Origin: Candidatus Kryptoniota bacterium
Lineage (GTDB): Bacteria; Bacteroidota; Ignavibacteria; Kryptoniales; JAKASW01
Direction of reading: 5' to 3'
DNA length: 64,000 nucleotides
Assembly: GCA_024641705.1 (NCBI GenBank)
Contig: JAHECO010000007.1
Span: 62,001 to 126,000, forward strand
The position numbers and the translations under genes are program-made. The notes under the pieces are model-generated. The model saw nothing but the letters and a program-made list of their open reading frames with translations. It searched no databases and was not told the DNA's origin. Every line of letters starts with the position of its first letter. Position 1 is the stretch's first letter. Positions 28,406 through 28,821 of this stretch are shown one piece after another.

Positions 28406-28477
28406 TGGGGCGTAGCCAAGTGGTAAGGCAGCGGCCTTTGGAGCCGCCACTCGTAGGTTCGAATCCTGCCGCCCCAG
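28406..28477 (+). tRNA. tRNA-Gln (anticodon TTG)
   Basis: Full cloverleaf: acceptor TGGGGCG pairs with CGCCCCA, D-arm AGCCAAGTGGTAAGGCA, anticodon stem GCGGC/GCCGC with loop CTTTGGA giving anticodon TTG, and T-arm with GGTTCGAATCC. CCA is not encoded. It reads CAA codons. A GIY-YIG nuclease gene begins 5 bases after it and a decayed partial copy of this tRNA follows that gene. Confidence 0.93.
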
Positions 28478-28482
28478 CGCAG

Positions 28483-28737
28483 ATGAACTTCTATGTGTAT
28501 GTATTGAGAAGTCTGAAGGTCGAGAGGTATTATATCGGCCAGACCGAGGATCTTGCAGACAGACTCAGGAGACACAATGGAGGGAGAGTAAGATCGACGA
28601 AGGCGTACAGGCCGTGGTCGATAGTGTACTTTGAGAAATATGAAACGAGAGCGGCTGCTGTGAGGCGGGAGCAGGAATTAAAAGACCTCAAGGGCACCGC
28701 AAGGTTTCTGAAGCTGATTGGCGTAGCCAAGTGGTAA
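28483..28737 (+). CDS. GIY-YIG nuclease, small (COG2827-like), tRNA-linked
   Basis: 84 aa: MNFYVYVLRSLKVERYYIGQTEDLADRLRRHNGG then STKAYRPWSIVYFEKYETRAAAVRREQELK. The GIY-YIG catalytic elements are YVY (residues 4-6), YYIG (16-19), R28 and E64. These small proteins resemble the nuclease modules of homing enzymes and UvrC; most have no assigned function. The start ATG lies 5 bases after the tRNA-Gln. The last five codons and the TAA stop (GVAKW) are encoded by a second copy of the tRNA 5' end. Upstream in-frame codons would only read through the tRNA and are rejected. Confidence 0.82.
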   Translation: MNFYVYVLRSLKVERYYIGQTEDLADRLRRHNGGRVRSTKAYRPWSIVYFEKYETRAAAVRREQELKDLKGTARFLKLIGVAKW

Positions 28738-28821
28738 GGCGTCCCGACTGCATACCATGCAGTCGGGACACTCGTAGGTTCTCCCGACAAAGCTTGACCT
28801 TTGTCGGGATGCCGCCCCAGC
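28718..28821 (+). pseudogene. decayed tRNA-Gln copy carrying two inserted hairpins
   Basis: A 21-base block identical to the tRNA-Gln 5' part (28409-28429) recurs at 28720-28740. CACTCGTAGGTTC recurs at 28769-28781 and TGCCGCCCCAGC at 28810-28821. The anticodon arm is replaced by a 12-bp hairpin (GTCCCGACTGCA / TGCAGTCGGGAC, 28741-28769). The T-loop is replaced by an 11-bp hairpin (TCCCGACAAAG / CTTTGTCGGGA, 28782-28809). Two acceptor G residues are also missing. It cannot form a working tRNA. Confidence 0.8.

Follow-up and report, generated by a model that had tools for sequence, protein, structure and literature searches.

The tRNA-Gln locus described here is probably a site occupied by a free-standing chromosomal gene of the homing type, with a tRNA gene as its target. 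It lies on the forward strand of the window, the 64-kb stretch of DNA that was analysed, and begins with an intact tRNA-Gln(ttg), the functional copy, at positions 28406 to 28478 (ARAGORN; Rfam RF00005, 64.9 bits). The preliminary description of the locus had placed a nuclease gene directly after this tRNA, with its stop codon inside a second copy. Both points are confirmed: the open reading frame of an 84-amino-acid GIY-YIG nuclease (28483 to 28737; PF01541, E = 4.6e-16; frame and stop read from the sequence) has its ATG 4 nt beyond the tRNA end, and its TAA falls inside the second tRNA copy. An exact 21-nt repeat joins the intact tRNA (28409 to 28429) to the first block of the displaced copy (28720 to 28740; tRNA nucleotides 4 to 24, acceptor and D-arm), which is the source of the TAA, and the C-terminal GVAKW of the nuclease is likewise encoded by this 5' half of the displaced copy.

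The second copy had been called decayed. The copy itself is real, and the two further tRNA blocks reported in it are exact repeats, but it is not merely decayed: it is hairpin-substituted by two palindromes. The first, GTCCCGACTGCAT-acc-ATGCAGTCGGGAC at 28741 to 28769, replaces the anticodon arm with a perfect 13-bp stem and a 3-nt loop (fold -23.1 kcal/mol). The second tRNA block, CACTCGTAGGTTC (28769 to 28781; nucleotides 43 to 55), comprises the variable loop and the 5' strand of the T-stem up to GGTTC. At the junction GGTTC^GAATCC a further palindrome read from the sequence, TCCCGACAAAG...CTTTGTCGGGA (28782 to 28809; 11-bp stem), replaces the T-loop GAATCC, and the third block, TGCCGCCCCAGC (28810 to 28821; nucleotides 62 to 73), is the 3' acceptor strand with the outer end of the tRNA. 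Palindromes of the form TCCCGAC..GTCGGGA occur twice in the 64-kb window, where 0.01 are expected, and both are in the displaced tRNA. The adjoining repeat TTAGATGA (28822 to 28829; compare GCAGATGA at 28479 to 28486) is probably what remains of the start of an older nuclease gene, and longer remnants of this kind are found at loci L006 and L008. The prs gene lies downstream of the second tRNA-Gln copy. Its leader (28900 to 29005) is strongly conserved in the genus, including AATCCGCC..GGAGGATCC and the surrounding sequence; it has no match in Rfam and is possibly a cis-regulatory RNA.

The GIY-YIG fold of the nuclease is settled by the Pfam match and by solved relatives of the UPF0213 group. 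The domain match exceeds the cut-off for PF01541, the catalytic residues Y6, Y17, R27 and E63 are invariant in the alignments, and the solved structures closest by sequence are UPF0213 proteins and SLX1 (the latter with E = 5.5e-7). The nuclease is under purifying selection: dN/dS among the members from the genus is 0.06 to 0.14, with many pairs saturated at synonymous sites. Apart from the tRNA, Rfam detects no RNA family in the window or at the locus, and no intron family; the reading frame between the two tRNA copies is thus that of a free-standing gene.

The arrangement is not peculiar to this locus. Relatives picked by protein sequence alone, through protein alignment against 84,980 species genomes, gave 80 loci from Bacteroidota, Ignavibacteriota, Patescibacteria, Cloacimonadota, Fidelibacterota (Marinimicrobia), Elusimicrobiota, Calditrichota, Acidobacteriota, Planctomycetota and other phyla. 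A tRNA gene on the same strand lies within 20, 50, 150 and 500 nt of the nuclease in 39, 53, 68 and 74 of these loci, respectively, and a tRNA on the opposite strand is found within 500 nt in three; these locus counts include related, non-independent sequences. In a further sample of the window's class, a tRNA gene on the same strand is found within 150 nt at 36 of 40 loci, and many isotypes are represented. The equally small GIY-YIG genes of a sister clade, in contrast, show this linkage in 0 of 30 and 0 of 39 loci (two overlapping samples), which bears out the earlier expectation that tRNA adjacency would exceed chance. Altogether, the tRNA genes involved are of about 16 isotypes, and the hosts belong to many phyla. 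Dozens of other tRNA genes show this anatomy, so that the arrangement in the window is not due to chance, and since the matching loci include isolate genomes (Pedobacter, Lunatimonas), it is not an assembly artefact either. A strict pattern combining the T-arm with YVYVL matched eight times in 395 genomes (controls, two); because exact codon patterns miss most cases, this count carries no weight here. Loci L212 and L213 (contig C20 of G008) contain several clustered GIY-YIG genes that belong to the tRNA-linked type and near which no tRNA was found; a different target and a lost tRNA are candidate readings of this cluster.

The loci come in two mirror layouts. In one, the complete tRNA precedes the nuclease (upstream layout) and the displaced copy follows it; in the other (downstream layout), the order is reversed. 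In the upstream layout the displaced copies keep the 3' end of the tRNA in 47 of 51 cases and the 5' end in 2 of 51; in the downstream layout they keep the 5' end in 26 of 27 and the 3' end in none of 27. The outer tRNA end is therefore retained in 73 of the 78 loci, and the retained half is the one that abuts the native flank. This outer-half retention is what one would expect of an element that inserted into a tRNA gene and restored it. The preliminary description had proposed such an entry, and the comparison supports it; we infer mobility, along with cleavage and transfer, from the comparison of loci. Across dozens of genomes the space between the tRNA copies, a bracket of about 0.3 kb, contains a single GIY-YIG reading frame, and this frame often terminates within the D-loop of the tRNA copy that follows. 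That the displaced copies act as folded tRNAs is unlikely, as those of the upstream layout usually do without the 5' strand of the acceptor.

Hairpins are a regular property of the displaced copies. A clear T-half is present in 36 of the upstream-layout copies, and in 33 of these it is immediately preceded by a stem of 5 bp or longer that abuts the variable loop and takes the position of the anticodon arm, compared with 4.9% at random positions. Where the anticodon arm has been replaced, the replacement is a hairpin in 24 of 26 cases, and in many loci the arm is lost at its exact boundaries; over all loci, a stem of at least 5 bp closes 43 of 89 inserted segments (about 2 expected). The inserted hairpins usually start with TCCC, TCCG or CCCG and end with GGGA or CGGA, and they are positioned in the anticodon arm or loop, the T-loop and the D-loop. 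Distinct pure insertions fall into loops in 38 of 48 cases (22 expected, p = 4e-6; the counts include related loci); nine of the 48, all of them hairpins, are at the T-loop site GGTTC^ and seven are after the first anticodon base. The displaced copies of other loci keep the motif GTTCSAWTY at this T-loop site. Across the genus the hairpins hold the same place with differing sequences. Simple homing does not predict the exact boundaries of the hairpins at the anticodon arm.

The same anatomy is found elsewhere in this genome, which contains 15 GIY-YIG matches, two of them longer and UvrC-like. At L006 (tRNA-Pro) the nuclease starts 5 bases past the tRNA and stops within the D-loop of a second copy, in which TGGCGCGTCTCGCGCCA substitutes for the anticodon arm and TCCGCCTTCGGCGGA for GAATCC; a decayed second nuclease follows. 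Arrays of nucleases with hairpin-bearing tRNA fragments between them are present at tRNA-Met (L008/L015) and tRNA-Ser (L011/L014). Extra decayed nuclease copies lie behind the displaced tRNA at L006 (1818 to 2030, reverse complement) and at L014, which suggests repeated rounds of gain and decay at a single tRNA. Among all the loci compared, tandem arrays of two or three nuclease copies at one tRNA occur at L021, L185, L186, L188, L195 and L211; both copies at L021 are identical, with a hairpin-bearing tRNA copy between them. Palindromes of the type TCCCGA..TCGGGA number 64 in the genome under study (G000), as opposed to one for the reversed control pattern, and thus form a dispersed class.

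Within the genus, eight of 13 species have the gene at the tRNA-Gln/prs locus, so that it is not fixed there, which again favours the idea of the preliminary description. The occupied locus of G010 and the unoccupied one of G012 align across the site with mostly identical flanks, and the insert sits between the tRNA and its downstream flank. In G012, as in G003, the tRNA is followed by what looks like a decayed nuclease start, and these two cases may therefore be losses; G008, G005 and G011 have no gene at this locus and, by eye, no such sequence. Because the gene is old at tRNA-Gln within the genus, transfer at this tRNA would be rare or ancient. On a protein tree of 96 sequences, with few alignment columns, tRNA isotype and host phylum each require 26 changes, with minima of 55 and 40, respectively, after shuffling; the nuclease clades thus track the tRNA isotype more closely than the host phylum.

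These observations can be accommodated by the following model of homing. In an unoccupied tRNA gene, the nuclease would make a break that separates the two halves; of the resulting ends, the left one would pair with the 5' half of the left tRNA copy of the element, and the right one with the 3' half of the right-hand copy. Repair would then copy in the nuclease gene and leave one complete tRNA. The displaced copy would have to supply no more than its outer half as a homology arm, so that its inner part could decay or be reused as the C-terminus and stop codon of the nuclease. The palindromes most likely destroy the cut site and the tRNA fold of the displaced copy, and so silence it, and tandem arrays might arise from unequal exchange between identical halves. 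If the target lies within the tRNA, then the intact tRNA should be cut too, which is a point against homing; a recognition site that includes native flank is one way in which the intact copy might escape. Another counterpoint is that much the same picture would result from a tandem duplication of the tRNA in which the gene lay between the copies from the outset.

Among the closest known systems are the free-standing GIY-YIG homing endonucleases of T-even phages, SegB included (PMC13096335; PMC2988022). SegB of phage T6 cuts within tRNA genes at the motif RAWTSGAAC and drives tandem amplification of the tRNA together with segB (PMC13096335). This motif is the reverse complement of the T-arm sequence GTTCSAWTY, and several displaced copies described here hold a hairpin in this very sequence. 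Like SegB, the present nucleases are small stand-alone proteins encoded next to tRNA genes, show no overall isotype preference, and are found in tandemly amplified tRNA-nuclease segments. An alternative explanation, modelled on SegB, is that the unit of tRNA and nuclease was duplicated in place through nuclease breaks and recombination, with one tRNA copy decaying later and no insertion into an unoccupied tRNA gene. The experimental precedent of SegB (PMC13096335), the tandem arrays (L185, L211), the identical nuclease copies at L021, and the older nuclease remnants after the displaced copy at L003, L006 and L008 all fit such an amplification, and we consider it a serious though somewhat unlikely alternative to homing, as it leaves unaccounted for the spread over about 16 isotypes and many phyla, the mirror layouts, and the species of this genus in which the gene is missing from this locus. 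Amplification and homing may also act together. The present genes further differ from the SegB type in being chromosomal and nearly absent from viruses, in having a complete tRNA on one side of the gene and a half copy on the other, in mirror layouts, in the hairpins of the displaced copy, and in nuclease clades that track the isotype. A PHROG search gave no match at E <= 0.01, and by sequence the protein is not a phage Seg protein; phage carriage amounts to two distant viral contigs without a tRNA and 19 weak phage matches below 60% identity.

Two readings would make the nuclease something other than a homing gene. It could be a host gene for tRNA processing or repair that is co-transcribed with the tRNA, the hairpin-bearing tRNA copy then serving its mRNA as a structural element on the 3' (or 5') side. 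The purifying selection, the frequent termination of the frame in the following tRNA copy's D-loop, and the genus-wide hairpins that differ in sequence at a constant place are compatible with a host function; nevertheless, we judge it improbable, as presence and absence vary within the genus, decayed extra copies occur, related species use different tRNAs, and the tree is ordered by isotype more than by host phylum. The nuclease could also be leftover cargo in the remnant of an integrase-type genomic island. Classic integration sites are found in tRNA genes, and islands at tRNA 3' ends share with the present loci the tRNA target, a partial tRNA duplicate and the preservation of function through one complete copy. 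This origin is very improbable: the bracket of about 0.3 kb holds the same single GIY-YIG frame in dozens of genomes, no integrase or other recombinase was found between the tRNA copies, the duplicated half can be either 5' or 3', and the displaced copy contains internal palindromes. Selfish DNA also interrupts tRNAs near the anticodon in the case of group I introns, which reside in tRNA anticodon loops with GIY-YIG enzymes as a common partner nuclease; unlike these, the present element, in which Rfam detects no intron, preserves the tRNA by duplication rather than by splicing.

The dispersed palindromes raise another alternative, that a structure-selective nuclease resembling SLX1 cuts extruded DNA hairpins, and that the anticodon-arm hairpin was swapped for a dispersed TCCCG..CGGGA palindrome. 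The loss of anticodon arms at exact boundaries in many loci, the place of SLX1 among the nearest solved structures, the excess of 64 palindromes over one in the control, and the palindromic repeats that flank the sister clade point in this direction. The likeness to SLX1, however, is at the level of the superfamily only, an unrelated process could place the hairpins, and we regard the exchange as unlikely. Carried to both clades, it would make small GIY-YIG nucleases minimal mobile elements that recognise hairpin-forming DNA, with the tRNA clade swapping or filling tRNA hairpins with palindromes and the sister clade serving as the enzyme of CGTC-type repeats. This generalization is speculative and rather doubtful; if true, the arms of the tRNA cloverleaf and REP palindromes would be two forms of one target.

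The sister clade (L126-L145, L220-L241, and in this genome L001, L002, L004, L005, L007 and L010) deserves attention in its own right. The preliminary description had proposed that a life targeted to tRNAs would explain small GIY-YIG proteins; this applies to one clade but not to the other, which is linked to palindromic repeats. These flanking repeats start with CGTC or TGTC-ATT, are often inverted, and take forms such as GTCATTGCGAG, GTCATTCTGAG and GTCATTCCxGCGAAAGCxGGAAT. Repeat cores reach 3.75 per kb near the gene compared with 0.11 per kb in the far flanks, and occur on both sides of the gene in 24 of 39 sister-clade loci; a perfect inverted repeat of 37 bp surrounds the gene at L141, and others measure 30 bp (L142), 29 bp (L240) and 25 bp (L230). 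Hairpins similar to those in the displaced tRNAs are also seen inside CGTC-type repeats, for example GTCATCCTGAG[TCCCGCCCTGCGGGA]CGAAGGATC near L126, as if hairpins replaced hairpins there too. CGTC-type REPs have been reported without a dedicated transposase (PMC3733652), and the sister clade is a candidate for their mobiliser. Its members bear on a stated open question, that of the missing transposase of these repeats. The tRNA-linked element, like REP/RAYT systems and CGTC-type REPs (PMC3733652), combines short palindromes with a small nuclease or transposase gene, but its enzyme is a GIY-YIG nuclease rather than a tyrosine transposase, no Y1 tyrosine transposase gene was found in the element, and its site is a tRNA gene. 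The UPF0213 GIY-YIG proteins (PDB 1zg2, 1ywl), although nearest by sequence among solved structures, were solved as hypothetical proteins. Partial duplications in fungal mitochondria (PMC4162613) were considered as an analogue and set aside: no passage found in that paper connects the duplications of atp6/atp9 with a GIY-YIG gene.

The best reading of the nuclease is that it belongs to the GIY-YIG superfamily and resembles a free-standing homing gene, comparable to SegB but chromosomal and marked by hairpins. In a literature search that covered few subscription journals, we found no report of tRNA-linked chromosomal GIY-YIG genes or of hairpin-substituted tRNA copies, and, judged from sequence comparison, the nuclease looks like a so far unreported type of selfish gene with tRNA genes as its targets. 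In the papers we found, there is no precedent for an anticodon arm exactly replaced by a palindrome, and such a replacement points to a specific DNA process. Genes for tRNAs are among the most conserved DNA and would provide homing sites common to many phyla, with the complete copy beside the element preserving the target. The nuclease clades that track isotype may represent natural specificity variants of enzymes presumed to cut tRNA genes, and a large set of small GIY-YIG genes with no assigned role would gain a likely way of life.
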